In this document: in pieces, positions 2 through 62,900 of the stretch
Numbering within the stretch: position 1 is the stretch's first letter
Layout: each line of letters starts with the position of its first letter
Source of the DNA: Xestospongia muta
Taxonomy: Eukaryota; Porifera; Demospongiae; Haplosclerida; Petrosiidae
DNA: 64,000 bases
Assembly: GCA_963693285.1 (NCBI GenBank)
Contig: OY848922.1
Span: 2,282,923-2,346,922, forward strand
Direction: 5' to 3'
Translations under genes and position numbers: made by a program
The notes under the pieces: model-generated
What the model was told of the DNA's origin: nothing
Database searches by the model: none
What the model saw: only the letters and a program-made list of their open reading frames with translations

Positions 2-3000
2 ATGGCTACTGACGTATCTTCAGGTAATATCATGCAATATCTACACTTATTATGTAGTCGTATATTACCATATAATTATATCTGATCTCAAGATATGGTA
101 CATATCATTCTCTACAGGACAATACAAACTTGATAAAAGAGTTGGTCATCACACTCAAGTGATTGGTGACAGTCTATATTTGTGGGGTGGGGGTCCACCA
201 AACTTACCTCTAGTACACAACAATGATGAGAAAAAGAGAGTCACATCTCAAGTACAAATCTTCAATATTACTTCTGGTAAATGGGACAGTAAACCCACCA
301 GAGGTAATCCACCTCTAGGAGTGATCAACTATTCTTGTACTACATTTATCAAAAAGATCTATTATTTTGGAGGAGATTGCCATCATGATAACTGCTACCA
401 TAACAGTCTGAATGAACTAGATACTTCTACTCTAACCTGGACACAGATATCACCAACAGATGATAGGAGACCAGTTATGAAGAGAGGATCTGGTAGTATG
501 ATGTTGACTGAGTATGGAGGAGTACATCGTCTTCTAGTTATAGGAGGTCGAGGATCCCCACCCTCTACAAAACTACCACAAGCTCAGTATATTCACTTAA
601 CCAATGATAGAGTACGTACTAATGAACAGAACCTATATAACATATCCACTAGTAAGTACATTAATGTATCATATTATACTATTAGACATCATATCATTAT
701 CATAGAGTACTGCTATTGTGTTGTATCATCTAAATAATCCACTACCTGTATTATGATATCTATATATATTACTACTCACTATTCAACCTGATAACTATTT
801 TAGTGTTTTCTAACTTACTAAAAGCAGATGAACACTACAGCAGTACTTTATAGTACATGTAATTATTATATGATGATTGGATATATGAAAGTAATTGATC
901 ACCAGTAGTCATGTGACCTTTGATTATTGTTAAACTATATATAATCAATTGTTCGCTATATAACAACTTATATTGTATATGCCTTTTACCTATATCACTT
1001 TTGAAATAATTTTAGTAGAGTATTTACAATAATAAATTAATGATCAGTTAATGTTGATATTAATATTATAGTTGTACTAACAAAGTGTCATTTTACTGAT
1101 TATTATATCATGACCAAATTACTACTATGATACAAGTATGATGATGAGTGTTCTGTTTGTTCTACTTTTAGATGAATGGACAATACCTGATATCAGTGGA
1201 CAGTGTATGCCACCTAATAGTGCCTTTATTATGGAAATGGTTCATAATACTAGAGCAGTCATTTTTGGTTGTGTAGTTGATGTTGGCATATTAAGTAATA
1301 CTATATATATAGTGGATATCATCAATAATACATTGGTATGTTATATTATCATTTGTACACTGACTAATAACATGTTATAAACTTATAATGAGTGTTAGTT
1401 GAGTTTATTTATCTATATCTAGCACTGGCAGACTATCACTAAACCTGACTCAGTAGTACAGTGGCCAAAAGAAAGATTCTTTCATGCTGCCAGTATTATC
1501 ACTAGATCAGTATCACCAATACTAGTGGTGATAGGTGGAGTGGATAATGATAAGAAAACACTAAAAGACTGCTGGATACTGGATATTAGTAAGAAGTCAT
1601 GGACAAAGGTATATCATGATGTGTTACTCTAACCAGTTCTATGATAGTATGTATCTGCTAAGTAGAAGTGTTATTTATAAATGATATGTCTCATACATTG
1701 TCTTAACAGTATCAGTTAGTAATAATTACACACTGTATTATTTTAATATGATAGATGTGTTATAATGTTTTGATGATTTGTATATATGTCTATACTTATA
1801 AGATTATATTTATAATTTGATAACATTCAAGTTACTATACTATAGTATATCTTGTCTATAATATTTACGCATAATAATGTAATAATATTCATTTCTCTAC
1901 ATACTACAGATTAATCTACCTGACTCTGTCACTGAAAGATATGCCCACTCTCTATCAACCTACATGATGGGACCACATTGTGTGTGGTTAGTTATAGTAG
2001 GAGGTGCAATAAGCTTTGGTGGTACACTTGTCACAGATCCCAATATAACAATGTTAATAGAACTAGGTACGTAAGTCATTACACACACAAGCCACATTAA
2101 GTTCATGTAAGAATCACACAATTGATGTCACAGTACTTGCTGTGTATTTCTTTATATATAGTAGGAGGTGTGGTTTGATGTACATAGTAGGAGATGTAAT
2201 TAGATGTACTAGTAAACTGTTTTGATGTACTACTGATACCCACATATTCATCATAAGAGATAATACTGTATGTATTATTAGTACTATAACTCTTCTTAGT
2301 GTTCATTTAGTACATGTACTGTTATATAGGTGACCTTGTTATGTACTACAACTTATTATAGTCTTATTACTTCCATACATGTTATACTAGTAGTAGACTA
2401 CCACATTGTATACTGACATTAGTACTGTTGTGTTCTCTCATATAGTCCTCAATGATGGTCAATGGTCAGTAGGGTTTGCACTAGACTCTAATGCATTGAC
2501 TATATTGCAGCGACTCACAGAAGTAAGAAGACAATGGATAGAACAACAAGAAACAAAACCAACTCAAGACAAGTTGTCAACTAAGGAGACAGTTCCTCAA
2601 GCTAACTACCGAGATGATCTTTTAGTTGCTCAACAAAACATACAAAGTCTTCAAGAAAGACTACTAGAACTAGAATCTCAACAAGCTAGACAACAAGGTA
2701 ACCTAACTATTTTGATGTAGTTAGTTATATAATTAAGTAGATGTTTATATTATAGTTTTTATTATATTATTATATTTTATTTTATTATTTTTTATTATGT
2801 TTATATTGTAGTTCCTACGACAACAAGTAATCTTGATTTAATACATGAAAAAGAAAGATATATAGCTCAACTCACTCGTAAACTAGATAAAAAAGAAGAG
2901 ATCATAACAACACTCCAAACACAACTACAAGAGTATAAACAACAGAACTTACCTAGGACTCCTCAAAAGACTACAGGTTTGTTATTATTGTAAATATAAC

Positions 3001-6000
3001 AGTTCATCACTTTATTTACCATATATCACAGATGTTGTCAGTTATCTTCCTAAACTAGCAGTTGTTCTACAACCAGTACAAGAAGATTGGGAACTACTGG
3101 GTCATCAACTTAATATAGATCAGTCTATACTGACTGATATTAGAAGTAAAGGAGATTCTACTGAACAGATGAAGCACTTGTTAGAAGAATGGTCTATAAA
3201 AGGAGGTACATTGACACAACTTGAAGATGCTCTGTTTCATATTGACAAGAAAGATGTCATTTCTGGTATGTTATAGTACTGTATGTTGTACTCACCACAA
3301 AAATGTCATTATAGTATTGTGTGTGCTACTATATATACATAAGCTCTTTTAATTAGTTTTTTTTACAATCATTTTTGAAATTTACCATTAAATTTTGTTT
3401 AATTAATTATTACATTTTTTGGAAGTATTAAGCACAAGATATTAATTTATGCTGATTTCTTATTTACAACATTGACACTAAAGTTAGTAATTTTTATAGC
3501 CTGGCACACACAGCATTCCAGGTAGTGATATAATCATTTTTAGCATGTATAATATATTATATAGAATATGTCAGGTCACTAATATATATTCTAATCATTA
3601 AAGTTCATATTACTGTATGTTATAATAGTTTGTTTAAAATATAAAGGAATACATGAACTAACAAGAAGAGAGAAACTAGTTCATGAAGATGATTTATATG
3701 TTCAGCATGAAGTGATAACCAAAGATGTAGAATGTCAGTTCAACTATCTCATCCCTTCTCTTGGTATGTCACTAGTATATTGTCATGTATTGATATTATT
3801 TTATTAGACAAGTTGGAATATCTTGATGGTACTGGTGTTCATATAGCTAGTAGGAAACTTTTCCTAATCCAAGGAGAACACAGTTCTTTCTTAAATTGGG
3901 AGGAGTATGGTTTGAGAATTAACGTACCTCATGGAACTATACCTCCTGGAGAAACTTGTGAAGTTTCTATTGCAGCAATTGTAGGGGGAGAGTTTGAGTC
4001 CCCCTCTGGTACAATGTTAGTGAGTGCTGTTTATGCTGTTTCTGTTTCCAAAGCACTCCTTCAACCAGTCCAGTTATCTATTCAACACTGTGTGTCAATA
4101 GAGACACAAGAACACACTGGTTACTTGAGTTTCGTTACAGCTGACCTGTATCAACCTAATCTCCCTTATAAAATACAATTAGAAAAAGGGGGACAGTTCT
4201 ATCCTGGTAACCAATATGGCAGTATTAACCTTACAAAGTTCTCTATAAAGGGAATCATTAAAGCTCTTATGACACCAGTAAGATGGCTGTTTGGGTATGG
4301 TGACATCGAACAACAAGAAACATCGTCATCATCATCTGAAGATGACACACAATTTGTGGATGCCCACACAGGTTTAGCAAGACATACATCAGAAGGTAAA
4401 AATTCACTTCATTCTATCTAGAGTTAATGTATTATATTTTTATAATGTTATAGCTATGGATCAGTCTCCAGTGAACTTATATGTAGGTCAGGTAGTGTAT
4501 GAAGTGAAAAGTCAAAACAAATGGCTCATGAGATTTCTGGTAGCTCAACATCTTGATGCTCTTTTAAAGGTATATTATCAGTATATAAAATTATATTTTT
4601 AAGATTTTTTCTTGTAGTACATTGACACTTCACTTCCAAACGTTGAGAAAGATGTCGTTGTATTCTTTAAATTTCTAGAGAAAAATGGATACATTGAGTT
4701 AGTGGTTGGAGAAGAACAGGTACATCCTTGTCAAGGATGGAGTGTCTATCCTCATTCTTATCCTACTAAGGTATGTGTCAATAATAACTCATATTATTTA
4801 TTATTAGTTAGTTTATTTAATATGAATAAAGTTGAATACCTGTTACATCAATTGTTATAGGAATGGATATAGAATAATTTTTTATAATTATAATAGTCAA
4901 TACTGAGCATCTCTGTTATTCCAGCCTTAATACCAACTGGAAATTGAAAGCTTACATAACAATACTACATAAATATATTAATTAAAATTAATAGACGAAA
5001 TGTAATGAGTAAAGTTCAATAACACTAATTATATATATAATTAATCTATTTCCAGATATATCAAAGAGCTGTAGATACTTGTGGAGCTTGTACTGCTCCC
5101 CAGTTTCCATCATGTTTGATTACAATATCTGCTACTCCCAGTGTTACTACAGTCCCAGTACTTCAATATGGTATTAGTTTGAGAGGTATCAGTAATGAAG
5201 AAGATCTTACTGAGAAAATCTATATTGTTCGATCACTTGGTAATAACTGATACACATATAGCTATTTTATTATTATTTTAATTTGTAATACATGTAGCTG
5301 CTATTACATCAGCTAATAGTCAACCTAATATTCTCATCAATAGATCACTAGTACATGATAATACACACAGTAAGTGTTTCTGTACTTCTACAGAATATGT
5401 GAATTTTTCATTGTGATATCTTTAAGCTACATGAAGAGACTTACTTATTGAGCACACTTTGTTCTGTGGTTATTTCATAATATTACTTTGCATTTTAGGT
5501 TTATCTAGTATTAATGAAGAGGATGTAGTCAGAGGTCCACATTCAACATCAGGTCTGTGATATTATTGATAGCATAATTTTGTTTATTTGGAATTGTTTT
5601 ATTAGTTTTCCTTAATATACATTATATATTTATATAAATATGTTATTACTTAATTATAATAAAATAACTATTTGTGCCTACAAAATATGACCCTTACTCA
5701 AGATATTTACATTTCAAGTGATACATATAGTATGTATATAGTATTAGATTTGTCATCACTACTACAGCTACTGAAATAAAATATAGTGTACCATTAAAAG
5801 GAATTAAACCAAATAACAGAAAGACTAATATTGTATGTTCTCTTCCTAGTATTGATGGTAACTACTGACTATATCATTTGTGTTATATAATTTTTTAGGA
5901 CTATCAAGTCCAACTAATTCAAGTAATGAAAGTGTCATTGCTACAGAGAATATAGGTATGTACTAGTGTTCATGGAAATTGTTAATGTACATATTATCAA

Positions 6001-6357
6001 GTTTTTTATATTAATAATAACTGCACTATCTAATCCATAGATCCATCCTTATTGAAGAACATTTTTATCAAACATTTTGCTAACTTATCGCGTCTCATGT
6101 CAATATCTGATCACAGACTATCTCTGGCATCTGAACTACTTAGTGGTTTTCTTATTACATTAGATTGTTATAATAGTGCTACAGATAATAGTCCAAAGTC
6201 AGATATGGAGAAAGGTCAATCTCTAATGAGAGGTCTTATGGCCAGTATCAACACCAAGCCCCAGTTATTAATGAAACTAATTAATGCACTAAAAAATATT
6301 GAAGCATGTAAATTGATAGCTGAGAAAATGCAATATGATCTTTCACATTTACAATAA
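2..6357 (+). CDS. Array copy 1: Kelch - coiled coil - Death - ZU5/UPA-like (type I) - CARD-like (type A) protein, 17 exons, about 1123 aa
   Basis: Exons by GT-AG and phase: 2-23, 118-651, 1172-1335, 1423-1608, 1910-2066, 2446-2697, 2812-2976, 3032-3265, 3647-3763, 3808-4395, 4454-4569, 4618-4770, 5056-5239, 5298-5369, 5499-5552, 5899-5955, 6041-6357. The joined frame is open. The start MATDVSSG, in a 22-nt first exon, is conserved in all copies; no signal peptide is seen, so the protein is probably cytosolic. Residues about 8-354 are six Kelch blades (repeated GG, spaced W). About 355-493 is a Gln/Glu-rich coiled coil. About 494-571 is a Death domain ([10 protein letters not shown] core). About 611-756 is ZU5 ([15 protein letters not shown]). 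About 807-957 is UPA-like and 1019-1123 a helical CARD-like end. Function is inferred: a recognition propeller coupled to death-fold signalling. The Ser/Asp-rich tail after ZU5 looks like a flexible linker. Exon ends, especially the small exons 14-16, are unproven without RNA. Confidence 0.85.
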
Positions 6358-6436
6358 CATATTACCATTTTAAATTTTATTTCATTAGCTGCTTTATTTT
6401 CTAACTTTTCTATAAAAAATGAAACTATTGTGCGTA

Positions 6437-8816: not shown

Positions 8817-9167
8817 CTACTTATAATATTGAAGTATACTTAATGGAATCAAATACCTTGGACATTCAAATACTTTAACATGAGGTATGATTTTACTAAG
8901 TTTTCTTAAGGTTGTTGTTGTTGCCATAACAAGTGTCCTTTCTTGTTGAAACATGTCAATAAAAATACAGTCCTCACTACTATCATCTGTTATGTATACA
9001 ACATCATAATTTGTCTGTCTTGTTGATCTAAAGTATTCTCTCGATATTAATATCAGTTCATCCATCAATCCATCCATTAATAATAATACCTTCTTTTCAG
9101 TAGTGCTGGCCAAAACTGGCAAAAAGCACTCTCTAAATTTTAAATACAGAGACTTCACTACTTCCAC
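8817..9167 (-). CDS. Minus-strand ORF, 116 aa, unknown; divergent from the next Kelch gene (spacer copy 1)
   Basis: Open from MEVVKSLYLKFREC to SILQYYK. A hydrophobic LLLMDGLMDELILI stretch is followed by FRSTRQTNYDVVYITDDSSE and a mixed C-terminal part. I do not recognise the family. The start lies 286 bp from the start codon of copy 2 on the other strand, a head-to-head layout that could share a promoter. An equally long version stands at 59310-59660; copies at 18894, 28537 and 36940 are broken. It could be a real small gene, the last exon of a lost gene, or a relic carried along in the duplications. Confidence 0.4.
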   Translation of the reverse strand: MEVVKSLYLKFRECFLPVLASTTEKKVLLLMDGLMDELILISREYFRSTRQTNYDVVYITDDSSEDCIFIDMFQQERTLVMATTTTLRKLSKIIPHVKVFECPRYLIPLSILQYYK

Positions 9168-9453
9168 AAACCTAACTGTTGATTCTTACCCAGTGTCTAC
9201 CTTCAGTCCTCATAACTTGTGTCAATGAAGTTAGTAGAGTTGTAATGATAGAGATAAACAGACTAATACGAACTTATTTATTCATACATCTTTTATGCAT
9301 CCATTGATACAAGTCATGCGTCCATTGAGTAAGAACGATCACATGACATTTTGAGCTCTACCAAAAAGTGTAGGAGTGGCTCGACATTTCTTTTCATAGT
9401 CTGGTTTTATAGACCATTCGCTAAGACTATTCTTTACTTGAGTTGTTAGTTAG
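9168..9453. promoter_or_regulatory. Divergent intergenic gap, likely promoter of array copy 2
   Basis: About 286 bp between the starts of the minus-strand ORF and the Kelch gene. The same segment, with small indels, precedes copies 3, 5 and 7, ending in the conserved GAGTTGTTAGTTAG just before the ATG. No TATA box stands out. Promoter role is inferred from position only. Confidence 0.4.
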
Positions 9454-12400
9454 ATGGCTACTGACGTATCTTCAGGTAATATCATACAATATCTACACTT
9501 GTTATGTAGTCGTATATTACCATATAATTATATCTGATCTCAAGATATGGTACATATCATTCTCTACAGGACAATACAAACTTGATGGAAGGGTTGGTCA
9601 TCACACTCAAGTGATTGGTGACAGTCTATATTTGTGGGGTGGGGGTCCACCAAACTTACCTCTAGTACACAACGATGATGAGAAAACTAGACTCACATCT
9701 CAAGTAGAAATCTTCAATATTACCTCTGGTAAATGGGACACTAAACCCACCAGAGGTAATCCACCTCTAGGTGTGGGCAACTATTATTGTACTACATTTA
9801 ACAAAAAGATCTATTATTTTGGAGGATGGTGTGGTCATGATATCTGCTACCATAACAGTCTGAATGAACTAGATACTTCCACTCTAACCTGGACACAGAT
9901 ATCACCAACAGATGATAGGAGACCAGTGATGAAGAGAGGTGCTGGTGGTATGATGTTGACTGAGTATGGAGGAGTACATCGTCTTCTAGTTATAGGAGGT
10001 CTTGGATCCCCACCTTCTACAAAACTACCACAAGCTCAGTATATTCAGTTACCCAGTGGTAGAGTATGTACTAATGAACAGAACCTATATAATATATCCA
10101 CTAGTAAGTACATTAATGTATCATATTATACTATTAGACATCATATCATTATCATAGAGTACTGCTATTGTGTTGTATCATCTAAATATTCCACTACCTG
10201 TATTATGATATCTATATATATTACTACTCACTATTGAACCTGATAACTATTTTAGTGTTTTCTAACTTACTAAAAGTAGATGAACACTACAGCAGTACTT
10301 TATAGTACATGTAATTATTGTATGATGAGTGGATATATGAAAGTAATTGATCACCAGTAGTCATGTGACCTTTGATTATTGTTAAACTAATCAATTGTTC
10401 ACTATATAACAACTTATATTGTATATACCTGTTACCTACATCACTTATGAAATAATTTTAGTAGAGTATTTACAATAATAGTTTAATGATCAGTTAATGT
10501 TGATATTAATATTATAGTTGTACTAACAAAGTGTCATTTTACTGATTATTATATCATGACCAAATTACTACTATGATACAAGTATGATGATGAGTGTTCT
10601 GTTTGTTCTACTTTTAGATAAATGGACAATACCTGATATCAGTGGACAGTGTATGCCACCTAATAGTTGCTTTGTTATGGAAATGTTCCATAATACTAGA
10701 GCTGTCATTTTTGGTGGTATAGTTGAAGATGGCACATCAAGTAATACTATATATATAGTGGACATCATCTACAATACATTGGTATGTTATATTATCATTT
10801 ATACACTGACAAATAACATGTTATAATGAGTGTTAGTTGAGTTCATTTGTCTATATCTAGCACTGGCAGACTATCACTAAACCTGACCCAGAAGAGCAGT
10901 GGCCAAAAGAAAGATACTTCCATGCTGCCAGTGTTATCATTGGATCAATATCACCAATACTAGTGATAATAGGTGGAGTAGATAATGATGAGAAAGCACT
11001 AAAAGATTGCTGGATACTGGATATTAGTAAGAAGTCATGGACAAAGGTATATCATGATGTGTCACTCTAACCAGTTCTATAATATTATGTATCTGTTAAG
11101 TAGAAGTGTTAATAATAAATGATATGTCTCATACATTGTCTTAACAGTATCAGTTAGTAATAATTACACACTGTATTACTTTAATATGATAGATGTGTTA
11201 TAATGTTTTGATGATTTGTATATATGTCTATACTTATAAGATTATATTTATAATTTGATAATATTCAAGTTACTTTACTATAGTATATCTTGTCTATAAT
11301 ATTTACACATAATAATGTAATAATATTGATATCTCTACATACTACAGATTAATCTACCTGACTCTGTCACTGAAAGATCTGCACACTCTCTATCAACCTA
11401 CATGATGGGACCACACTGTGTGTGGTTAGTTATAGTAGGAGGTACAGTTAACTCTGATGGTACACTTATCACAGATCCCAATATAACAATGTTGATAGAA
11501 ATAGGTATGTAAGTCATTAGACACACAAGCCACATTAAGTTCGTGTGAGAATCACACAATTGATGTCATAGTACTTCTGTGTATTTCTTTATATATAGTA
11601 GGAGGTGTGGTTTGATGTACATAGTAGGAGATGTAATTAGTAGTAAACTGTTTTGATGTACTACTGATACCCACATATTCATCATAAGAGATAATACTGT
11701 ATGTATTATTAGTACTATAACTCTTCTTAGTGTTCATTTAGTACATGTACTGTTATATAGGTGACCTTGTTATGTACTACAACTTAGTATAGTCTTATTA
11801 CTTCTATACATGTTATACTAGTAGTAGACTACCACATTGTATACTGACATTAGTACTGTTGTGTTCTCTCATATAGTCCTCAATGATGATCAATGGTCAG
11901 TAGGGTTTGTATTAGACTCTAATGAACTGACCTCAACTGATAACTACCAACAAAGAGTACTAAAACAACTCACAGAAGTAAGAAGACAATGGATAGAACA
12001 ACAAGAAACAAAACCAACTCAAGACAAGTTGTCAACTAAGGAGACAGTTCCTCAAGCTAACTACCGAGATGATCTTTTAGTTGCTCAACAAAACATACAA
12101 AGTCTTCAAGAAAGACTACTAGAAGTAGAATCTCAACAAGTTAGACAACAAGGTAACCTAACTATTTTGATGTAGTTAGTTATATAGTTAAATAGATGTA
12201 TGAATAATAGACTGATAGTCCATACATCCTCTGTATATTAGACTTTGTTTTATGACAATCCATTCATGTGTCCATCCATTCATTATAGATAGAAAAGAAT
12301 GAACATGGTTATATCTCTATCTGTCCATTCTTCTGTTTATCCATCAATCCATTTATTCATATATTCATCTATCATCCATTTTTCTAACTCTTTGTCTGTT

Positions 12401-15123: not shown

Positions 15124-15174
<51 letters not shown>

Positions 15175-19525: not shown

Positions 19526-22500
19526 ATGGCTACTGACGTATCATCAGGTAATGTCATACAATATCTACACTTGTTATGTAGTCGTATATTACCATATAAT
19601 TATATCTGATCTCAAGATATGGTACATATCATTCTCTACAGGACAATACAAACTTGATGGAAGAGTTGGTCATCACACTCAAGTGATTAGTGACAGTCTA
19701 TATTTGTGGGGTGGGGATCAACCAAACTTATCTCTAGTGCACAACAATGATGAGAAAAAGAGAGTCACATCTCAAGTAGAAATCTTCAATATTACCTCTG
19801 GTAAATGGGACAGTAAACCCACCAGAGGTAATCCACCTCTAGGAGTGTTCCACTGTTCTTGTACTACATTTAACAAGAAGATCTATTACTTTGGAGGATG
19901 GTGTGGTCTTGATAACTGCCACCATAACTGTGTGAATGAACTAGATACTTCCACTCTAACCTGGACACAGATATCACCAACTGATGATAGGAGACCAGTG
20001 ATGAAGAGAGGTTATGGTGGTATGATGTTGACTGAGTATGGAGGAGTACATTGTCTTCTAGTTATAGGAGGTCAAGGATCCCCACCCTCTACAAAACTAC
20101 CACAAGCTCAGTATATTTATTTATCCAGTGGTACAGTACGTACTAATGAACAGAACCTATATAATATATCCACTAGTAAGTACATTAATGTATCATATTA
20201 TACTATTAGACATCATATCATTATCATAGAGTACTGCTATTGTGTTGTATCATCTAAATATTCCACTACCTGTATTATGATATCTATATATATTACTACT
20301 CACTATTGAACCTGATAACTATTTTAGTGTTTTCTAACTTACTAAAAGTAGATGAACACTACAGCAGTACTTTATAGTACATGTAATTATTGTATGATGA
20401 GTGGATATATGAAAGTAATTGATCACCAGTAGTCATGTGACCTTTGATTATTGTTAAACTAATCAATTGTTCACTATATAACAACTTATATTGTATATAC
20501 TTGTTACCTACATCACTTATGAAATAATTTTAGTAGAGTATTTACAATAATAGTTTAATGATCAGTTAATGTTGATATTAATATTATAGTTGTACTAACA
20601 AACTGTCATTTTACTGATTATTATATCATGACCAAATTACTACTATGATACAAGTATGATGGTAAGTGTTCTGTTTGTTCTACTTTTAGATGAATGGACA
20701 ATTCCTGATATCAGTGGACAGTGTATGCCACCTAATCATAGCTTTGTTATGGAAATGGTCCATAAAACTAAAGCAGTAATTTTTGGTGGTATAGTTGAAG
20801 ATGGCACATCAAGTAATACTATATATATAGTGGACATCATGAACAATACATTGGTATGTTATATTATCATTTATACACTGACTAATAGCGTGTTATAACA
20901 AGTGTTAGTTGAGTTCATTTGTCTATATCTAGCACTGGCAGACTATCACTAAACCTGACCCAGTAGTACAGTGGCCAAAGGAAAGGGATAATCATGCTGC
21001 CAGTATTATCACTGGATCAATATCATCAATACTAGTGATGATAGGTGGACAGGATAATGATAAGAAAACACTAAAAGACTGCTGGATACTGGATATTAGT
21101 AAGAAGTCATGGACAAAGGTATATCATGATGTGTCACTCTAACCTGTTCTATGATAGTATGTATCTGTTAAGTAGAAGTGTTAATTATAAATGATTTGTC
21201 TCATACGTTGTCTTAACAGTATCAGTTAGTAATAATTACACACTGTATTACTTTAATATGATAGATGTGTTATAATGTTTTGATGATCTGTATATATGTC
21301 TATACTTATAAGATTATATTTATAATTTGATAACATTCAAGTTACTATACTGTAGTATATCTTGTCTATAATATTTACACATAATAATGTAATAATATTC
21401 ATATCTCTACACACTACAGATTAATCTACCTGACTCTGTCACTGAAAGATGTGGCCATTCTCTATCACCCTATATGATGGGACCAGACTGTGTGTGGTTA
21501 GTTATAGTAGGAGGTTTAGTAAGCTCTGATGGTACACCTGTCACAGATCCCAATATAACAATGTTAATAGAACTAGGTATGTAAGTCATTACACACACAA
21601 GCTGCATTAAGTTCATGTGAGATTTACACAATTGATGTCATAGTACTTCTGTGTATTTCTTTATATATAATAGGAGGTGTGGTTTGATGTACATAGTAGG
21701 AGATGTAATTAGATGTACTAGTAAACTGTATTGATGTACTACTGATACCCACATATTCATCATAAGAGATAATACTGTATGTATTATTAGTACTATAACT
21801 CTTCTTAGTGTTCATTTAGTACATGTACTGTTATATAGGTGACCTTGTTATGTACTACAACTTAGTATAGTCTTATTACTTCCATACATGTTATACTAGT
21901 AGTAGACTACCACATTGTATACTGACATTAGTATTCTTGTGTTCTCTCATATAGTCCTCAATGATGGTCAATGGTCAGTAGGGTTTGTACTAGACTCTAA
22001 TGAACTGACCTCAACTGATAACTACCAACAAAGAGTACTAAAACAACTCACAGAAGGAAGAAGACAATGGATAGAACAACAAGAAACAAAACCAACTCAA
22101 GACAAGTTGTCAACTAAGGAGATAGTTCCTCAAGCTAACTACCGAGATGATCTTTTAGTTGCTCAACAAAACATACAAAGTCTTCAAGAAAGACTACTAG
22201 AACTAGAATCTCAACAAGTTAGACAACAAGGTAATCTAACTATTATGATGCAGTTAGTTATATAGTTAAGTAGATGTATGGATAATAGACTGATAGTCCA
22301 TATATCCTCTGTATGTTAGACTTTGAATTAATGGATGGACTTGGTGACATATAAAAGATGGATTAATAGAATAATAAAATGTATTGATGTGTACATAGAG
22401 AGATAGAGAAATGGATGTATATATCAATTGATGGATGGATAGTTAAATAGTTGGGAGATGACTAAATGGATGAATAGATGGACAAGTAAAACAACAGATG

Positions 22501-28895: not shown

Positions 28896-29682
28896 CCTCA
28901 CATTCGTAAGAAAACCACATCATAGACATTCCAAACGCCTACTCAGTTGGATCATTTCGAATGTGAGGCTGGAGGCTCGAATGTGAGGCTGGAAGCAGTG
29001 GTTGCACGTGAAAGAAGGTTTGTGTTTTGAATTTGCTTACATATGAATATGAAAATATCCTTGGCTTACTTCTAGGTTTGGTATATAATGTATGAACTGA
29101 GAATATGGCAATCAGGTCAGCTGTGCCAGCTATGTTTCACTCCAAGTACTGAGTAAATAAAGGTAAGTCCTGGATTTAGTACAAAACGAACGACTAACTT
29201 GAGACTCGTATATCTATCCCTACACCTACAAAGGAGATGTTTTCATTTAAATCAATAGATAACTTGTCTCTGGTGTCCAGATATGAACGTCCAACTGCCA
29301 AATGATGTTTTATTACCTCCTAATCAATTGTGATGAGTTTGATCAATGCTTTGTGAGGATTGTAAGAACTTGAAATACATGCTAAATCCTGAGTGAGTAT
29401 AGATATTGCTGACTTATATAAAAATAAAATTTTCAACAAAGTAGTCATAGCCTCAAGCCTTCACTATAGCCTTGCTATATTATATGGACTACCTAGCAAT
29501 AAGTATGAGGGATGGTAAGTATTGTTCAATGAGGCAGTAGTTCAATGGGATATTTATATCTGGACACAGACAAATCAGTTTATTAGTTTGACCAGACCTT
29601 TCTCCTAGGGTGGGAGGGGTCAGGCTATGCTAGACTAAGCGTACATGCCCCAAAATATAGCTAGGTCTAGATATTTTAATAG

Positions 29683-30982: not shown

Positions 30983-31182
30983 NNNNNNNNNNNNNNNNNN
31001 NNNNNNNNNNNNNNNNNNNNNNNNNNNNNNNNNNNNNNNNNNNNNNNNNNNNNNNNNNNNNNNNNNNNNNNNNNNNNNNNNNNNNNNNNNNNNNNNNNNN
31101 NNNNNNNNNNNNNNNNNNNNNNNNNNNNNNNNNNNNNNNNNNNNNNNNNNNNNNNNNNNNNNNNNNNNNNNNNNNNNNNNNN
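30983..31182. other. Assembly gap, 200 N
   Basis: Exactly 200 N, beginning inside the tandem repeat; the real size is unknown. ORFs crossing it are artefacts. Confidence 0.99.
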
Positions 31183-37359: not shown

Positions 37360-40300
37360 ATGGCTATTTACGTATCTTCAGGTAATATCATACAATATCT
37401 ACACTTGTTATGTAGTCGTATATTACCATATAATTATATCTGATCTCAAGATATGGTACCATATCATTCTCTACAGGACAATACAAACTTGATGAAAGAT
37501 ATGATCATCAGACTCAAGTGATTAGTGACAGTCTATATTTGTGGGGTGGAGATCAACCAAACTTCCCTGAAGTACACAGCAATGATGAGAAAATGAGACT
37601 CACATCTCAAGTACAAATCTTCAATATTACCTCTGGTAAATGGGATAGTAAATCCACCAGAGGTAATCCACCTCTAGGAGTGTTCGGTTACTCCTGTACT
37701 ACATTTAACAACAAGATCTATTATTTTGGAGGATGGTGTGGTCATGATATCTGTTACCATAACAGTCTGAATGAACTAGATACTTCCACTCTAACCTGGA
37801 CACAGGTAGCACCAACAGATGATAGGAGACCAGTGATGAAGAGAGGTTTTGGTGGTATGATGTTGACTGAGTATGGAGGAGTACATTGTCTTCTAGTTAT
37901 AGGAGGTGAAGGATCCTCACCTTCTACAATACTACCACAAGCTCAGTATATTCACTTATCCAATGGTACAGTACGTACTAATGAACAGAACCTATATAAT
38001 ATATCCACTAGTAAGTACATTAATGTATCATATTATACTATTAGACATCATATCATTATCATAGAGTACTGCTATTGTGTTATATTATCTAAATATTCCA
38101 CTACCTGTATTATGATATCTATATATATTACTACTCACTATTTAACCTGATAACTATTTTAGTGTTTGCTAACTTACTAAAAGTAGATGAACACTACAGC
38201 AGTACTTTATAGTACATGTAATTATGAGTGGATATATGAAAGTAATTGATCACCAGTAGTCATGTGACCTTTGATTATTATTAAACTAATCAATTGTTCA
38301 CTATATAACAACTTATATTGTATATACCTGTTACCTACATCACTTATGAAATAATTTTAGTAGAGTATTTACAATAATAGTTTAATGATCAGTTAATGTT
38401 GATATTAATATTATAGTTTTACTAACAAAGTGTCATTTTACTGATTATTATATCATGACCAAATTACTACTATGATACAAGTATAATGATGAGTGTTCTG
38501 TTTGTTCTACTTTTAGATGAATGGACAATACCTGATATCAGTGGACAGTGTATGCCACCTAATAGTGGCTTTGTTATGGAAATGGTCCATAATACTAGAA
38601 CAGTCATTTTTGGTGGTTTAGTTGAAGTTGGCATAATAAGTAATACTATATATATAGTGGACATCATGAACAATACATTGGTATGTTATATTATCATTTA
38701 TACACTGACTAATAACATGTTATAATGAGTGTTAGTTAAGTTCACTTATCTATATCTAGCACTGGCAGACTATCACTAAACCTGACCCAGTAGTACAGTG
38801 GCCAAAAGAAAGGTGCCTTCATGCTGCCAGTATTATCATTGGATCAATATCACCAATACTAGTGATGATAGGTGGAGTGGATAATGATAAGAAAGCTCTA
38901 AAAGACTGCTGGATACTGGATATTAGTAAGAAGTCATGGACAAAGGTATATCATGATGTGTCACTCTAACCAGTTCTATGATAGTATGTATCTGTTAAGT
39001 AGAAGTGTTAATTATAAATGATATGTCTCATACATTGTCTTAATAGTATCAGTTAGTAATAATTACACACTGTATTACTTTAATATGATAGATGTGTTAT
39101 AATGTTTTGATGATTTGTATATATGTCTATACTTATAAGATTATATTTATAATTTGATAACATTGAAGTTACTATACTGTAGTATATCTTGTCTATAATA
39201 TTTACACATAATAATGTAATAATATTGATATCTCTACATACTACAGATTAATCTACCTGACTCTGTCACTGAAAGATATGCCCATTCTCTATCAACCTAC
39301 ATGATGGGACCACACTGTGTGTGGTTAGTTATAGTAGGAGGTGCAGTAAGCTCTGATGATATTTATGTCACAGATCCCAATATAACAATGTTAATAGAAC
39401 TAGGTACGTAAGTCATTACACACACAAGCCACATTAAGTTCATGTGAGAATTACACAATTGATGTCATAGTACTTCTGTATATTTCTTTATATATAGTAG
39501 GAGGTGTGGTTTGATGTACATAGTAGGAGATGTAATTAGATGTACTAGTAAACTGTATTGATGTACTACTGATACCCACATATTCATCATAAGAGATAAT
39601 ACTGTATGTATTATTAGTACTATAACCTTTCTTAGTGTTCATTTAGTACATGTACTGTTATATAGGTGACCTTGTTATGTACTACAACTTAGTATAGTCT
39701 TATTACTTCCATACATGTTATACTAGTAGTAGACTACAACATTGTATACTGACATTAGTACTCTTGTGTTCTCTCATATAGTCCTCAATGATGGTCAATG
39801 GTCAGTAGGGTTTGTACTAGACTCTAATGAACTGACCTCAACTGATAACTACCAACAAAGAGTACTAAAACAACTCACAGAAGGAAGAAGACAATGGATA
39901 GAACAACAAGAAACAAAACCAACTCAAGACAAGTTATCAACTAAGGAGATAGTTCCTCAAGCTAACTACCGAGATAATCTTTTAGTTGCTCAACAAAACA
40001 TACAAAGTCTTCAAGAAAGACTACTAGAACTAGAATCTCAACAAGCTAGACAACAAGGTAACCTAACTATTATGATGTAGTTAGTTATATAGTTAAGTAG
40101 ATGTATGGATAATAGACTGATAGTCCATACATCCTCTGTATGTTAGACTTTGTTTTATGACAATTCATTCATGTGTCCATCCATCCATTATAGGTAGAAA
40201 GGAATGAATATTGTTTTATCTCTATCTGTCCATTCTTCTATTTATCCATCCATTCGTTCATTCATATATTCATCTATCATCCATTTTTCTATCTCTTTGT

Positions 40301-43300
40301 CTGTTTGTCCATTTACTATTCCACATTTCTCCATATCCATCTGCCTGTCCAATAGTTTGCTATTCATCCATTGGAAAGATGGATGGACAAGAGTCACGAG
40401 ATATTAAGAGACAACATATGATTGTATAATGGACAAATTGATTGAAGGAATGAGATGGAATAATAGATGAATGGACATATGGAAGGATGAATGGATGGAT
40501 GGACTTGGGAGACATATAAATTAATAGAATAATAAAATGTATTGATGTGTACATAGAGAGATAGAGAAATGGATGTATATATCAATTGATGGATGGATAG
40601 CTAAATAGTTGGGAGATGACTAAATGGATGAATAGATGGACAAGTAAAGCAACAGATGGATCAATAGTTTGACATATAACAAGACACATAGTAACAGATG
40701 ATAAGATATCCATTGTGTTTTATGTTATAGTTTTTTAATATATCATTATATTTTATTATATTTTATTTTATTATTTTTTATTATGTTTATATTGTAGTTC
40801 CTATGACAACAAGTCATCTTGATTTAGTACATGAAAAAGATAGCTATATAGCTCAACTCACTCGTAAACTACACAATGTTACTAAAGAGAAAGAGGAGAT
40901 CATAACAACACTCCAAACACAACTACAAGAGTATAAACAACAGAACTTACCTAGGGCTCCTCAAAAGACTACAGGTTTGTTATTATTGTAAATATAACAG
41001 TTCATCACTTTATTTACCATATATCACAGATGTTGTCAGTTATCTTCCTAAACTATCAGTTGTTCTACAACCAGTACAAGAAGATTGGGAACTACTGGGT
41101 CATCAACTTAATATAGATCAGTCTATACTGACTGATATCAAAAGTAAAGGAGATTCTACTGAACAGATGAGCCATTTGTTAGAGGAATGGTCTATAAAAG
41201 GAGGTACATTGACACAACTTGAAGATGCTCTACTACATATTGGCAAGAAAGATCTCATTTCTGGTATGTTATATTACAGTGATCTGTCAATGTGTTAAAC
41301 ATGATATTATTATTATTGTGATCTTATTGTCAGATTTACTTGCTCTACAAGACAAAGGCAGTACACATACTGATATCAGTGTACAGGTCTCTACTGATTA
41401 CAGTGATAAATGTATCCAGTGTGATTACTGGAATAATACCAATATATCAGGTAGCCTATATACTATATATTATACTCTTCAGTGAATGTTTGTTATGTAG
41501 ACTCATTTGAAAGAATGGTTACAGTTGGAAAGAAGCTATGTCTCTACAATGCTCATACTAATCATGAATTAATAGTGGAACAATGTGGGTTAAGACTTGT
41601 CATTCCTGCAGAGGTCATCACACCAGTTGAGTCTATATATGAGGTAGCTACTCAAGGTTTGTGGGGTGGTACATTTGTGTTCCCTGAAGGTACCACACTT
41701 ATCAGTGGTGTTTGTTATATATCAGTGTCCAGTTCCTATGAGCTCAACAAACCAGTTACTGTTGAGCTAATGCATTGTGCTCAAATACTTAATGAAAAAC
41801 AGACACAATACCTGAGTTTTGTGGCTGCTAAATCTGGCCCACCCTTCAAATTTGAATACTTACCAGGAGGATCATTTTCTACTGAGTCTCAATATGGTAC
41901 TATATCTTTAAAGAAGTTTTCATTACTAGCTATAGTACTAGTTATTGGTGGTGCTGCAGCACTTGCATTAGGAGCTGTCGCAAGACGTCATCTTACAGCA
42001 GGTAAATAAGAAATGGTTGTATTAATTTAAATATTTACACATCCAGGTAACAAACCTTCCTGTTACTATCAAGCTTGTGTTTTTTATAAAAGTATGGATA
42101 CCAATAAATGGAATTTAAATTTTGTTGTAACTCAAGATACCAAGTATTCTGAGGTAATAGGTCTATATAAGTGTATTAATTTTAATTATTTTGTTTATAG
42201 TGTGTTCAAGAACTGACATCTACTGAGGAACTTGGAGAAAAACATTCCAGCTTTAGATTTTGTTTTGTCTCTAAGACATTGAAGTTATTAGGATTTCCTG
42301 ATGATGCAGTTGAAGGATGGGTAGTGAAACCTATTCATAATCCTCCTGTAGTAAGTGTCATAAAATATTTGCTCAATATAAAAAGTATTTATATATAATT
42401 GTATTATTTTGGTAAAAATGTAATTAGAACATAACTTTAACATATAGGTTAACAGGAGACATGTTGATGATTTTATGGAATCAAAGAGTAGCAATCCTCC
42501 ATACATTCCTGTGTTAATACGTGCTGATCCAAATGCTAAAGAAAGCTTTGAATATGCAATAACTATTGAGGGTATTGAAGTAACTGATGATGAATGTAAA
42601 ACATCAGCTAATAGTCAACCTAATATTCTCATCAACAGATCACTAGTACATGATAATACACAGAGTAAGTGTTTTTGTACTCTACAGAATATGTGAATTT
42701 TTTATTGTTGATATCTTTAAAGTACATGAAGAGACTTACTTACTAAACACACTTTGTTCTGTGGTTATTTCATAATATTGCTTTGCATTTTAGGTTTATC
42801 TAGTATTAATGAAGAGGATCTAGTCAGAGTTCCACATTCAACATCAGGTCTGTGATATTATTGATAGCATAATTTTGTTTAATTGGAATTTTTTTAATAG
42901 TTTTCCTTAATATACATTATATATTTATATAAATATGTTATTATTTAATTATAATAAAATAACTATTTGTGCCTACAAATATGACCCTTACTTAGGATAT
43001 TTACATTTTAAGTGATCCATATAGTATTAGATTTGTCATTACTATAATAATAATACCATTATTACCAAGACTGTTAGGTCATCTGACTAGAACATAATTA
43101 TAAACATTTACTTATTATAGGTGATCTTTCTAATACATTACTAACAGCTCCATGTTTTGTCTCTACACTTTAGATGATACTCTTAATTCTGATATAGCTA
43201 GACGAGCTTTAGTTAAATGTACCAGTGCTATTGTTGAATCAACTATTGAGCCTATTGTTCTAGCAAGGAGACTGATTTCAGAAGAAATCATTTCTGAGGA

Positions 43301-43565
43301 TGTTTACAAGATTATAAAAGACAAGAAAACAGGAGATACAAGTGCAGATCGTCTTGACCAGATTCTTGATGATCTAAAGGATCATGTCAAACACAATGCT
43401 AGCGCTTTCATGATTTTCTTGGATATTTTGAGAGATGATAGTTTAAATCGACAAGACCTAGCAGACAAAATAATGTCAAAATATAAAGGTATGATATATT
43501 AGCTTTAATCCTTTCTTTAGAAAATACTCTTTTCTGTTTCAGAATTAGCTACATCAAAAATCTAA
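37360..43565 (+). CDS. Array copy 5: Kelch - coiled coil - Death - ZU5/UPA-like (type II, with hydrophobic segment) - CARD-like (type C) protein, 16 exons, about 1077 aa
   Basis: Exons: 37360-37381, 37477-38010, 38517-38680, 38760-38945, 39247-39403, 39782-40057, 40798-40974, 41030-41263, 41334-41450, 41501-42001, 42047-42153, 42201-42350, 42448-42664, 42794-42847, 43174-43488, 43543-43565. The N-terminus is MAIYVSSG. Through the Death domain (about 506-583) it matches its neighbours. The linker exon keeps the length of 117 nt but not the sequence, and ZU5 is a diverged version (GLRLVIPAEVITP, then LSFVAAKSG). It ends KKFS followed by about 20 hydrophobic residues (764-783), a possible membrane helix absent from type I. 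Three exons encode the UPA-like part (ending FEYAITIEGIEV). The last domain (about 966-1077) reads like a CARD: ARRLISEEIISEDVYKII, then LDQILDDL, then FLDILRDD. A 23-nt final exon adds the stop. Confidence 0.82.
40104..40717. mobile_element. Foldback element (copy 5)
   Basis: Full-length counterpart of 12199-12810. The centre has an inverted repeat around CATCCATTGGAAAGATGGATG. Confidence 0.5.
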
Positions 43566-50472: not shown

Positions 50473-53400
50473 ATGGCTACTGACGTATCTTCAGGTAATA
50501 TCATACAATATCTACACTTGTTATGTAGTCATATATTACCATATAATTATATCTGATCTCAAGATATGGTACATATCATTCTCTACAGGACAATACAAAC
50601 TTAATGGAAGAGTTGGTCATCACACTCAAGTGATTAGTGACAGTCTATATTTGTGGGGTGGACAACAACCAAACTTACCTTTAGTACACAACAATGATGA
50701 GAAAAAGAGAGTCACATCTCAAGTAGAAATCTTCAATGTTACCTCTGGTAAATGGGACACTAAACCCACCAGAGGTAATCCACCTCTAGGAGTGATCAAC
50801 TGTTCTTGTACTACATTTAACAAAAAGATCTATTATTTTGGAGGATTCTGTGGTCATAATATCTGCCACCATAACTGTCTGAATGAACTAGATACTTCCA
50901 CTCTAACCTGGACACAGATATCACCAACAGATGATAGGAGACCAGTGATGAAGAGAGGTTATGGTGGTATGATGTTGACTGAGTATGAAGGAGTACATCG
51001 TCTTCTAGTTATAGGAGGTCAAGGATCCCCACCTTCTATAAAACTACCACAAGCTCAGTATATTCAGTTACCCAGTGGTAGAGTACGTACTAATGAACAG
51101 AACTTATATAACATATCCACTAGTAAGTACATTAATGTATCATATTATACTATTAGACATCATATCATTATCATAGAGTACTGCTATTGTGTTGTATCAT
51201 CTAAATATTCCACTACCTGTATTATGATATCTATATATATTACTACTCACTATTTAACCTGATAACTATTTTAGTGTTTTCTAACTTACTAAAAGTAGAT
51301 GAAGACTACAGCAGTACTTTATAGTACATGTAATTATTGTATGATGAGTGGATATATAAATGTAATTGATCATCAGTAGTCATGTGACCTTTGATTATTG
51401 TTAAACTAATCAATTGTTCACTATACAATAACTTATATTGTATATACCTGTTACCTACATCACTTATGAAATAATTTTAGTAGAGTATTTACAATAATAG
51501 TTTAATGATCAGTTAATGTTGATATTAATATTATAGTTGTACTAACAAACTGTCATTTTACTGATTATTATATCATGACCAAATTACTACTACGATACAA
51601 GTATGATGATGAGTGTTCTGTTTGTTCTACTTTTAGATGAATGGACAATACCTGATATCAGTGGACAATGTATGCCACCTAATAGTAGGTTTGTTATGGA
51701 AATGGTTCGTAATACTAGAGCAGTCATTTTTGGAGGTACAATTGAAGGTGGCACATTAACTAATACTATATATATAGTGGACGTTATCAACAATACATTG
51801 GTATGTTATATTATCATTTATACACTGACTAATAACATGTTATAATGAGTGTTAGTTGAGTTCGTTTGTCCATATCTAGCACTGGCAGACTATCATTAAA
51901 ACAGACCCATTAGTACAGTGGCCAAAAGAAAGGTTCCTTCATGCTGCCAGTATTATCATTGGATCAATATCGCCAATACTAGTGATGATAGGTGGAGTGG
52001 ATAATGATAAGAAAACACTAAAAGACTGCTGGATACTGGATATTAGTAAGAAGTCATGGACAAAGGTATATCATGATGTGTCACTCTAACCAGTTCTATA
52101 ATAGTATGTATCTGTTAAGTAGAAGTGTTAATTATAAATGATATGTCTCATACATTGTCTTAACAGTATCAGTTAGTAATAATTACACACTGTATTACTT
52201 TAATATGATAGATGTGTTATAATGTTTTGATGATTGTATATATGTCTATACTTATAAGATTATATTTATAATTTGATAAGATTCAAGTTACTATACTGTA
52301 GTATATCTTGTCTATAATATATACACACAATGATGTAATAATATTGATATCTCTACATACTACAGATTAATCTACCTGACTCTGTCACTAAGAGATGTGT
52401 CCATTCTCTATCAACCTACATGATGGGACCACATTGTGTGTGGTTAGTTATAGTAGGAGGTGGAGTAAGCTATGATGATAGTTTTGTCAAAGACCCCAAT
52501 ATAACAATGTTAATAGAACTAGGTATGTAATTCACTACACACACAAGCCACATTAAGTTCATGTGAGAATTACACAATTGATGTCATAGTACTTCTGTGT
52601 ATTTCTATATTTATAGTAGGAGGTGTGGTTTGATGTACATAGTAGGAGATGTAATTAGATGTACTAGTAAACTGTTTTGATGTACTAGTGATACCCACAT
52701 ATTCATCATAAGAGATAATACTGTATGTATTATTAGTACTATAACTCTTCTTAGTGTTCATTTAGTACATGTACTGTTATATAGGTGACCTTGTTATGTA
52801 CTACAACTTAGTATAGTCTTATTACTTCCATACATGTTATACTAGTAGTAGACTACCACATTGTATACTGACATTAGTACTCTTGTGTTCTCTCCTATAG
52901 TCCTCAATGATGGTCAATGGTCAGTAGGGTTTGTACTAGACTCTAATGCATTGACTATATTGCAGCGACTCACAGAAGTAAGAGAACAGATAGAACAACA
53001 ACAAACAAAACCAACTCAAGACAACTCGTCAGCTAATGAAAGAGTTCTTCAAACTAACTACCGAGATGATCTTTTAGTTGCTCAAAAAAACATACAAAGC
53101 CTTCAAGAACGACTACTAGAACTAGAATCTCAACAAGCTAAACAACAAGGTAACCTAACTATATTGATGTAGTTAGTTATATAGTTAAGTAGATGTATGG
53201 ATAATAGACTGATAGTCCATACATCCTCTGTATGTTAGAGTTTGTTTTATGACAATTCATTCATGTGTCCATCCATCCATTATAGGTAGAAAGGAATGAA
53301 TATTATTATATCTCTATCTATCCATTCTTCTGTTTATCCATCCATCCATTTATTCATATATTCATCTATCATCCATTTTTCTATCTCTTTGTCTGTTTGT

Positions 53401-58601: not shown

Positions 58602-58691
58602 ATGAGTAGTTCAAAAGTAGTGGAGGTGAAAGGTAAAGATAAGAGAGAAAGAAAAGCTACATGTACATGTAGAGTAGATAGAAAAAAATAG
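58602..58691 (+). pseudogene. Small ORF truncated to 29 aa; spacer copy 6
   Basis: Begins as the other copies do, but a deletion after the VDR segment creates an early TAG (58689-58691). The remaining sequence of the ORF is still recognisable downstream, out of frame. Confidence 0.35.
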
Positions 58692-59309: not shown

Positions 59310-59660
59310 CTATTTATAGTATTGAAGTATACTTAACGGAATTAAATACCTTGGACATTCAAATACTTTAATATGAGGCATAATTTTACTAAGTTTTCTC
59401 AAAGTTGTTGCTGTTGCCATAACAAGTGTCCTTTCTTGTTGAAATATGTCAATGAAAATACAGTGCTCACTGCTATCATCTGTTACATATACAACATTAT
59501 AATTTGTCTGTCTTGTTGATCTAAAGTACTCTCTCAATATTAATATCAGTTCATCCATCAATCTATCCATTAATAATAATACCTTCTTTTCAGTAGAGCC
59601 AGCCAAAACTGGCAAAAAGCACTCTCTAAATTTTAAATACAGAGACTTCACTACTTCCAC
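59310..59660 (-). CDS. Minus-strand ORF, 116 aa, unknown; divergent from the next Kelch gene (spacer copy 6)
   Basis: Full-length counterpart of the ORF at 8817-9167, with about ten amino-acid differences and no stop. Its start lies 285 bp from the ATG of array copy 7. Function unrecognised. Confidence 0.4.
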   Translation of the reverse strand: MEVVKSLYLKFRECFLPVLAGSTEKKVLLLMDRLMDELILILREYFRSTRQTNYNVVYVTDDSSEHCIFIDIFQQERTLVMATATTLRKLSKIMPHIKVFECPRYLIPLSILQYYK

Positions 59661-59945
59661 AAACCTAACTGTTGATTCTTACCCAGTGTCTACGTTCAGT
59701 CCTCATAACTTGTGTCAATGAAGTTTGTAGAGTTGAATTGATAGAGATAAACAGACTAATACGAACTTATTTATTCATACATCCTTTATGCATCCATTCA
59801 TACAAGTTATGCGTCCATTGCTTAGAACGATCACATGACATTTTGAGCTCCAGCAAAAAGTGTAGGAGTGACTCGACATTTCTTTTCATATTGCTGTTTT
59901 ACCTAGCCTTCGCTAAGACTCTTCTTTACCCGAGTTGTTAGTTAT
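59661..59945. promoter_or_regulatory. Putative promoter region of array copy 7
   Basis: Counterpart of 9168-9453 with near-identical sequence and spacing. Positional inference only. Confidence 0.38.
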
Positions 59946-62900
59946 ATGGCTACTGACGTATCTTCAGGTAATATCATACAATATCTACACTTGTTATGTA
60001 GTCGTATATTACCATATAATTATATCTGATCTCAAGATATGGTACATATCATTCTCTACAGGACAATACAAACTTGATGGAAGATTTGGTCATGACACTC
60101 AAGTGATTAATGACAGTCTATATTTATGGGGTGGGGATCAACCAACCTTACCTGAAGTACACAACAATGATAAGAAAAAGAGAGTCACATCTCAAGTAGA
60201 AATCTTCAATATTACCTCTGGTAAATGGGACACTAAACCTACCAGAGGTAATCCACCTCTAGGAGTGATCAACTGTTCTTGTACTACATTTAACAAAAAG
60301 ATCTATTATTTTGGAGGATACTATGGTTATGATAAATCCTACCATAACTGTCTGAATGAACTAGATACTTCCACTCTAACCTGGACACAGATATTACCAA
60401 CAGATGATAGGAGACCAGTGATGAAGAGAGGTACTGGTGGTATGATGTTGACTGAGTATGGAGGAATACATCGTCTTCTAGTTATAGGAGGTGCTGGATC
60501 CCCACCTTCTACAATACTACCACAAGCTCAGTATATTCAGTTACCCAGTGGTATAGTACATACTAATGAACAGAACCTATATAACATATCCACTAGTAAG
60601 TACATTAATGTATCATATTATACTATTAGACATCATATCATTATCATAGAGTACTGCTATTGTGTTGTATCATTTAAATATTCCACTACCTGTATTATGA
60701 TATCTATATATATTACTACTCACTATTGAACCTGATAACTATTTTAGTGTTTTCTAACTTACTAAAAGTAGATGAACACTACAGCAGTACTTTATAGTAC
60801 ATGTAATTATTGTATGATGAGTGGATATATGAAAGTAGTCATGTGACCTTTAATTATTATTAAACTAATCAATTGTTCACTATATAACAACTTATATTGT
60901 ATATACCTGTTACCTACATCACTTATGAAATAATTTTAGTAGAGTATTTACAATAATAGTTTAATGATCAATTAATGTTGATATTAATATTATAGTTGTA
61001 CTAACAAAGTGTCATTTTACTGATTATTATATCATGACCAAATTACTACTATGATACAAGTATGATGATGAGTGTTCTGTTTGTTCTACTTTTAGATGAA
61101 TGGACAATACCTGATATCAGTGGACAGTGTATGCCACCTAATAGTGGCTTTGTTATGGAAATGGTCCATAATACTAGAGCAGTCATTTTTGGTGGTGTAG
61201 TTGAAATTGGCATATTAAGTAATACTATATATATAGTGGACATCATCAACAATACATTGGTATGTTATATTATCATTTATACACTGACTAATAACATGTT
61301 ATAATGAGTGTTAGTTGAGTTCATTTGTCTATATCTAGCACTGGCAGACTATCACTAAACCTGACCCAGTAGAGCAGTGGCCAAAGGAAAGATTCTTTCA
61401 TGCTGCCAGTATTATCACAGGATCGATATCACCAATACTAGTGGTGACAGGTGGACTGGGTAATGATAAGAAAACACTAAAAGACTGCTGGATACTGGAT
61501 ATTAGTAAGAAGTCATGGACAAAGGTATATCATGATGTGTCACTCTAACCAGTTCTATGATAGTATGTATCTGTTAAGTAGAAGTGTTAATAATAAATGA
61601 TATGTCTCATACATTGTCTTAACAGTATCAGTTAGTAATAATTACACACTGTATTACTTTAATATGATAGATGTGTTATAACGTTTTGATGATTTGTATA
61701 TATGTCTATACTTATAAGATTATATTTATAATTTGATAAGATTCAAGTTACTATACTGTAGTATATCTTGTCTATAATATTAACACATAATAATGTAATA
61801 ATATTGATATCTCTACATATTACAGATTAATCTACCTGACTCTGTCACTGAAAGATGTAACCACTCTTTATCAACCTACATGATGGGACCACACTGTGTG
61901 TGGTTAGTTATAGTAGGAGGTGCAGTAAGCTTTGGTGCTATACCTGTCACAGATTCCAATACAACAATGTTAATAGAACTAGGTATGTAAGTCATTACAC
62001 ACACAAGCCACATTAAGTTCATGTGAGAATTACACAATTGATGTCATAGTACTTCTGTGTATTTCTATATATATAGTAGGAGGTGTGGTTTAATGTACAT
62101 AGTAGGAGATGTAATTAGATGTACTAGTAAACTGTATTGATGTACTACTGATACCCACATATTCATCATAAGAGATAATACTGTATGTATTATTAGTACT
62201 ATAACTCTTCTTAGTGTTCATTTAGTACATGTACTGTTATATAGGTGACCTTGTTATGTACTACAACTTAGTATAGTCTTATTACTTCCATACATGTTAT
62301 ACTAGTAGTAGACTACCACATTGTATACTGACATTAGTACTCTTGTATTCTCTCATATAGTCCTCAATGATGGTCAATGGTCAGTAGGGTTTGTACTAGA
62401 CTCTAATGAACTGACCTCAACTGATAACTACCAACAAAGAGTACTAAAACAACTCACAGAAGTAAGAAGACAATGGATAGAACAAGAACAAACAAAAACA
62501 ACTCAAGACAAGTTGTCGACTAAGGAGATAGGTCTTCAAACTAACTACCGAGATGATCTTTTAGTTGCGCAACAAAACATACAAAATCTTCAAGAAAGAC
62601 TACTAGAACTAGAATCTCAACAAGTTAGACAACAAGGTAACCTAACTACATTGATGTAGTTAGTTATATAGTTAAGTAGATGTATGGATAATAGACTGAT
62701 AGTCCATACATCCTCTGTATGTTAGAGTTTGTTTTATGACAATCCATTCATGTGTCCATCCATCCATTATAAGTACAAAGAATGATTATTGTTATATCTC
62801 TATCTGTCCATTCTTCTATTTATCCATCCATCCATTCATTCATATATTCATCTATCATCCATTATTCTATCTCTTTGTCTGTTTGTCCATTTACTACTCC

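Follow-up and report, generated by a model that had tools for sequence, protein, structure and literature searches.

Why should seven tandem copies of one gene share near-identical introns and differ again and again at the same few residues of the encoded protein? The question is raised by a 64,000-nt window of Xestospongia muta (C6:2282923-2346922, where C6 is the window's contig in a 158 Mb eukaryote assembly), whose genes follow the domain order Kelch propeller, coiled coil, Death, ZU5. In copy 1 the propeller is encoded on the plus strand by exon 2 (blades 1-3, window positions 118-651, with AG/GT borders conserved among copies and a Pfam Kelch match), exon 3 (blade 4, 1172-1335), exon 4 (blade 5, 1423-1608) and exon 5 (blade 6, 1910-2066). 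We find that about 10% of the Kelch codons are under diversifying selection, whereas the rest of the propeller and the ZU5 domain are constrained. The copies very probably belong to a germline repertoire of pocket receptors in which a diversified Kelch propeller is tied to death-fold signalling.

A sequence-only reading of the window had located the variable residues at two loop sites of each blade and had proposed diversifying selection on the propeller. The residue pairs between Arg and His of the R-xx-H motif are present as it listed them: VG/VG/VG/AD/YD/VG/FG in blade 1 of copies 1-7, FF/YF/DN/-/CL/FL/FF in blade 5 (confirmed in copies 1-3 and 5-7) and YA/SA/CG/-/YA/CV/CN in blade 6, which copy 4 lacks. 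The residues following GG in blades 1-3 also match its list. Two sites per blade is a fair description, the R-xx-H and after-GG positions accounting for 23 of 27 hot codons, but "loop" has to be widened to loop or adjoining strand end: in the structure model of a relative, DSSP assigns 15 of 32 hot positions to strand, 16 to coil and 1 to helix, no different from the domain as a whole (170 strand, 159 coil and 17 helix among 346 positions). Between copies 1 and 2, exon 2 shows the 20 amino-acid-changing codons claimed, with 9 silent codons instead of about 6. For ZU5, a comparison of copies 1 and 3 gives 7 residue differences, as had been counted, plus 8 silent codons; these two comparisons rested on different copy pairs (1/2 and 1/3), and for the pair 1/2 the ZU5 exon has 22 changed residues and 17 silently changed codons.

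Codon models were fitted to exons 2-5 of the 13 intact C6 copies, with M8 in our own implementation (naive posteriors, kappa fixed from M0, FastTree branch lengths). A single omega for the Kelch region was 0.84 under M0, and M8 placed 10.8% of the codons at an omega of 7.4, with twice the log-likelihood difference (2dlnL) at 237.5 over M7 and 237.3 over M8a, in which omega is fixed at 1. The exons taken singly gave 2dlnL of 91 (exon 2), 33 (exon 3), 36 (exon 4) and 50 (exon 5), the halves of exon 2 gave 36 and 45, and the Kelch region on the intron tree gave 317; the signal was kept with every exon tree as well as with the intron tree. Other genomic sets, for which no origin independent of C6 is claimed, behaved similarly, with 2dlnL of 95.5 (79.6 over M8a) for 8 copies of the C1 set and 46.2 (33.9 over M8a) for 9 copies of the C7 set. 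The 19 further copies of the C2 and C7b sets, represented by exon 2 sequence only, gave 69.1 (9 copies) and 42.4 (10 copies); of the sites flagged in exon 2, the hot list includes 9 of 14 for C2 and 9 of 16 for C7b, the rest lying off it. The ZU5 exon showed no signal of positive selection among 7 copies (2dlnL 0.2), and that of two other tail exons was weak (exon 6, 5.1; exon 9, 5.4). The proposal of diversifying selection on the propeller is thereby supported, and because the same columns vary in the other genomic sets and in paralogs from Amphimedon queenslandica, the variation is not due to chance.

Could such figures arise without selection for change? Under relaxed constraint, exposed loops of redundant copies would simply drift, and both the decay of 6 of the 19 C6 copies, which are broken or cut, and the frequent tolerance of propeller loops to change would fit. 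Drift, however, predicts a dN/dS (amino-acid-changing over silent change) of at most 1 and not the 3.3 to 7 seen here, with M8 far above M8a, and many hot sites are shared with the C1, C7, C2 and C7b sets and with Amphimedon, so that we hold this explanation to be very improbable. Recombination or gene conversion among copies could also mislead codon models, and the exons do look reshuffled. We simulated 32 null data sets with no omega above 1 and with tips reshuffled every 29 codons; 2dlnL stayed at or below 11.1 in all 32 runs, although the M0 omega of these nulls (0.24-0.50) was lower than the observed 0.84. One run flagged 14 sites (omega 1.25), one flagged 11 (omega 1.13) and the others at most 2. 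Single-exon trees remain significant, and a pairwise comparison that uses no tree points the same way: 20 codons named from the C1 and C7 sets only, when measured in C6, have a dN of 0.536 and a dS of 0.165 (dN/dS 3.26), against 0.056 and 0.093 (0.61) for the other 328 codons. An artefact of recombination is a very improbable account.

Hypermutation targeted at the pocket codons would produce variability with no need for selection, and silent change is indeed about twofold higher at hot codons than at other codons (0.173 vs 0.088). Part of this excess may be expected from the counting of multiply hit codons, and dN exceeds dS threefold. Selection fits better than a mutator because variation at hot codons is higher in positions 1 and 2 (0.45 and 0.50) than in position 3 (0.17) and includes fewer transitions, with a transition/transversion ratio of 0.72 compared with 1.92 at other codons and 1.36 in introns; hypermutation thus seems a very unlikely source of the pattern.

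The position of the hot residues suggests what is being diversified. The Kelch region is matched by Pfam PF24681 (E 4.3e-35) and other Kelch families and has six blades with GG, its nearest relatives by sequence are KLHDC3 (1e-15) and KLHDC2 (1e-12), and the structure model of an Amphimedon relative matches the KLHDC2 and Keap1 propellers, with KLHDC2 as top fold ahead of Keap1 among the best 50 Foldseek matches. By alignment, the hot residues map to the degron pocket of KLHDC2: of the 7 pocket residues named in a paper, all 7 align to C6 hot sites when the intron tree is used and 6 when the coding tree is used. KLHDC2 holds the C-terminal carboxylate with two arginines and a serine (PMC11377542). 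Arg236, Arg241 and Ser269 align to positions 213, 219 and 252, which are variable across the 13 C6 copies, with a shift of one residue in the phmmer alignment at 236 and 241.

The pattern of variability is old, since Amphimedon paralogs and the other genomic sets vary at like columns: column entropies are correlated (rho 0.39-0.51) among C6, C1, C7 and Amphimedon, the last represented by 14 of its 24 paralogs, and of the 40 Amphimedon columns with most variation, 21 belong to the 35 hot columns of 347. All 24 proteins that a search of 5.8 billion turned up (7990 candidates scored) come from Amphimedon (P0001-P0024, 31-51% identity), which by itself makes a sponge genome very likely. They belong to the same family; some are named as ZU5 or CARD domain-containing and most are uncharacterised, and no study of selection on the Amphimedon Kelch proteins was found in the literature searched.

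How the copies acquire new combinations of these residues is suggested by their distances. Because inter-copy distances disagree from exon to exon, the simplest reading is that Kelch exons have been exchanged among copies via near-identical introns. Among the 13 C6 copies, Mantel tests showed no appreciable positive correlation of exon 2 distances with those of exons 3-5, nor of exon 3 distances with those of exons 4 and 5 (r -0.44 to 0.12), while distances were correlated inside exon 2 (r 0.45) and for exon 4 vs exon 5 (r 0.46). By eye, copies L016, L017 and L018 are nearly identical in exon 2, and exons 3-5 of L017 resemble those of L011, which carries a stop. The near-identity of introns holds well for intron 2 (652-1171 in copy 1, plus strand; mean difference 2.7% in C6) and a little less closely for introns 2-4 together (3.1%, compared with about 9-10% at silent exon sites). 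For intron 2 the difference is 0.027 among C6 copies and 0.044 in the comparison of C6 with five near C1 copies; the corresponding figures for silent sites of the other codons are 0.088 and 0.174. As intron 2 thus diverges less than silent exon sites, the introns are homogenised or constrained, and their use as a neutral yardstick was rejected. The 3' part of intron 2 is still detectable in C7 copies at 73-78% identity.

The remainder of copy 1, likewise on the plus strand, frames what the propeller could be coupled to. Exon 1 (2-23, ATG to CAG followed by GT) encodes MATDVSS, and similar starts lie at 9454, 19526, 31576, 50473 and 59946. Downstream of the blades follow two coiled-coil-like exons, namely exon 6 (2446-2697), whose counterpart is helical in relatives' structure models, and exon 7 (2812-2976, by eye), and then the Death domain in exon 8 (3032-3265; PF00531, E 8e-9, 35.9 bits vs a cut-off of 22.6), a linker in exon 9 (3647-3763) and ZU5 in the 196 codons of exon 10 (3808-4395; PF00791, 25.3 bits vs a cut-off of 21), which served as our selection-free control. 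The remaining exons (4454-6357, including 4454-4569, 4618-4770 and 5056-5239) and the last exon with the stop (6041-6357) were placed by splice signals and by eye, and no Pfam family exceeds its cut-off downstream of ZU5. A weak CARD match was found at window positions 43134-43499 (E 0.02, 15.3 bits, below the cut-off of 23.9), and the model of the Amphimedon relative P0001, which is low in ZU5 and coiled coil and served for the C-terminal helices only, has a confident helical bundle at residues 911-1012. Pfam detected no BTB domain, exon 1 supplying just MATDVSS ahead of blade 1, and no NACHT or NB-ARC domain in spliced copy 1; none of the genome's 98 listed NACHT matches falls inside the window.

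Taken together, an intact copy would be an intracellular-type receptor with an N-terminal six-bladed Kelch propeller of the KLHDC2/KLHDC3 type, followed by a coiled coil that leads on to the Death domain, to ZU5 and to a helical C-terminal region. The pocket of each copy may bind a ligand of its own, a peptide or protein that is non-self or altered self, binding may drive assembly of death-fold signalling via the coiled coil and the Death domain, and near-identical introns would let recombination assemble new exon combinations. Both ligand and immune role are conjectural, and immune or self/non-self recognition is to our mind the likeliest role, with reasonable though far from complete confidence. 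The pocket could alternatively serve substrate choice of a ubiquitin ligase or other housekeeping, or recognition of symbionts or gametes instead of defence, which the proximity to KLHDC3 and KLHDC2 in sequence and to KLHDC2 in fold would favour, as would the large size of plant F-box Kelch families. The tail, however, holds Death and ZU5 and no ligase module by Pfam, and Arg236 and Arg241 of KLHDC2, which bind the carboxylate, are not conserved, and we regard such a role as rather unlikely.

The loss of these two arginines also weighs against a repertoire of pocket receptors, and it does so together with several other observations. Just 4 of the 7 pocket residues in the C1 set and 2 of 7 in the C7 set fall on hot sites. 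Rapid change extends beyond the Kelch domain, with a pooled dN/dS of 1.39 in exon 9 (39 codons) and a 2dlnL of 37.3 with an omega of 68 in Death exon 8, which comes from one extreme codon of 78. Pfam makes no CARD call on the C-terminal exon of copy 1, no UPA match exceeds its cut-off, and the 6 of 19 C6 copies broken or cut inside Kelch would fit a decaying family as well. Finally, in a study that exposed two sponges to microbial molecules (PMC6208332), two tables of genes changed on challenge each list one Kelch-motif gene, and both of these fell instead of rising, which lends weak support at most.

Among known systems, the closest parallel to a selected pocket repertoire is found in fungi. 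In HET-E/HET-D of Podospora anserina, four codons in the d-a loop and b-c turn on the interaction face are positively selected and the WD40 repeats undergo concerted evolution (PMC1805685). HNWD genes and the Kelch copies have in common multigene beta-propeller receptors, selected codons on one face at d-a and b-c positions, and exchange among copies. They differ in that fungal WD40 repeats are exchanged as units and joined to NACHT, whereas here Kelch is exchanged exon-wise and joined to Death and ZU5. KLHDC2, the C-degron receptor of a CUL2 ligase, appears similar in propeller fold and, by alignment and model, in pocket location, but its anchor positions vary here and the tail is Death and ZU5. 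Keap1 and other BTB-Kelch proteins are less similar than KLHDC2, no BTB being found here. NLRP1 and CARD8, with their FIIND (ZU5-UPA, then CARD), likewise have ZU5 ahead of a C-terminal region; the sensor here is a Kelch propeller, and ZU5 alone is called. Coral tachylectin-2 is a cnidarian propeller lectin under positive selection too, though its variants are alleles of one gene and its sugar-contacting residues are conserved (PMC2880987). We found no account of this Kelch-Death-ZU5 family in the mostly open-access literature covered; it would be a hypervariable propeller receptor family with Kelch for WD40 and with Death and ZU5 for NACHT.

The family extends well beyond the window. A DNA search in which 40 of 94 candidates were scored found at least 40 close loci, of which 19 lie on C6 (2.25-2.45 Mb), 11 on C1 and 10 on C7, with Kelch exons 2-5 intact in 31 of the 40 (13 of 19, 9 of 11 and 9 of 10, respectively). 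A Kelch profile gave at least 157 matches genome-wide, ordinary Kelch genes included (150 of 516 candidates scored), and 112 of the 150 listed matches are grouped in 11 clusters of at least 4 members each; a NACHT profile, with 102 of 155 candidates scored, gave at least 98 genomic matches. The Death exon had 111 matches, with clusters at C3:8.9-13.35 Mb, C9:1.16-1.27 Mb, C4:1.50-1.60 Mb, C14:1.17-1.20 Mb and C2:21.95 Mb, mostly at 53-79% identity. Since no Kelch, nor any NACHT, is among the matches listed for these clusters, it seems that other families use the Death module too.

The other copies in the window all lie on the plus strand. Kelch exons 2-5 span 9570-11504 in copy 2, with an open frame and all splice sites present, 19642-21576 in copy 3, 37477-39403 in copy 5, 50589-52522 in copy 6 and 60062-61982 in copy 7. 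Copy 4 (31692-33174) ends after exon 4 and is a truncated deletion chimera joining its Kelch exons to another ZU5 exon, part of a second-type ZU5 exon lying within 33175-33560, some tens of bases past its exon 4. A second-type ZU5 exon with an open frame also stands 3' of copy 5 (41455-42009; Pfam ZU5 21.8 bits, cut-off 21) and by eye ends with a long hydrophobic stretch, a possible membrane helix; with two ZU5 types, the tails differ between copies as well. An open frame of 122 amino acids occurs on the minus strand 5' of copies 2 and 7 (8817-9185 and 59310-59678), the former without a Pfam match. A minisatellite with a 142-bp period occupies 29549-30984; nine 300-nt copies were compared in register with a reference, which the first resembles at 64% and the remaining eight at 91-100%. 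An Rfam scan of the window gave no match at gathering scores.

How sponges distinguish self, symbiont and pathogen is largely open, and the clustered Kelch repertoire (at least 157 matches including ordinary Kelch), of the same order as the NACHT repertoire (at least 98), offers a concrete and testable set of receptors. Fungal WD40 and animal Kelch propellers would then be a case of convergence, varying at the same two loop positions. More tentatively, and with clear doubts, sponges may have independently evolved a germline anticipatory repertoire of perhaps more than 100 Kelch receptors that recognise short motifs or the ends of peptides, as KLHDC2 does with C-degrons, and trigger death-fold signalling; the walls of the pocket, lying on separate exons, would be recombined by way of homogenised introns, making the pockets combinatorial. 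If true, this would be an animal counterpart to fungal HNWD recognition that stands beside the NLRs of the same genome.

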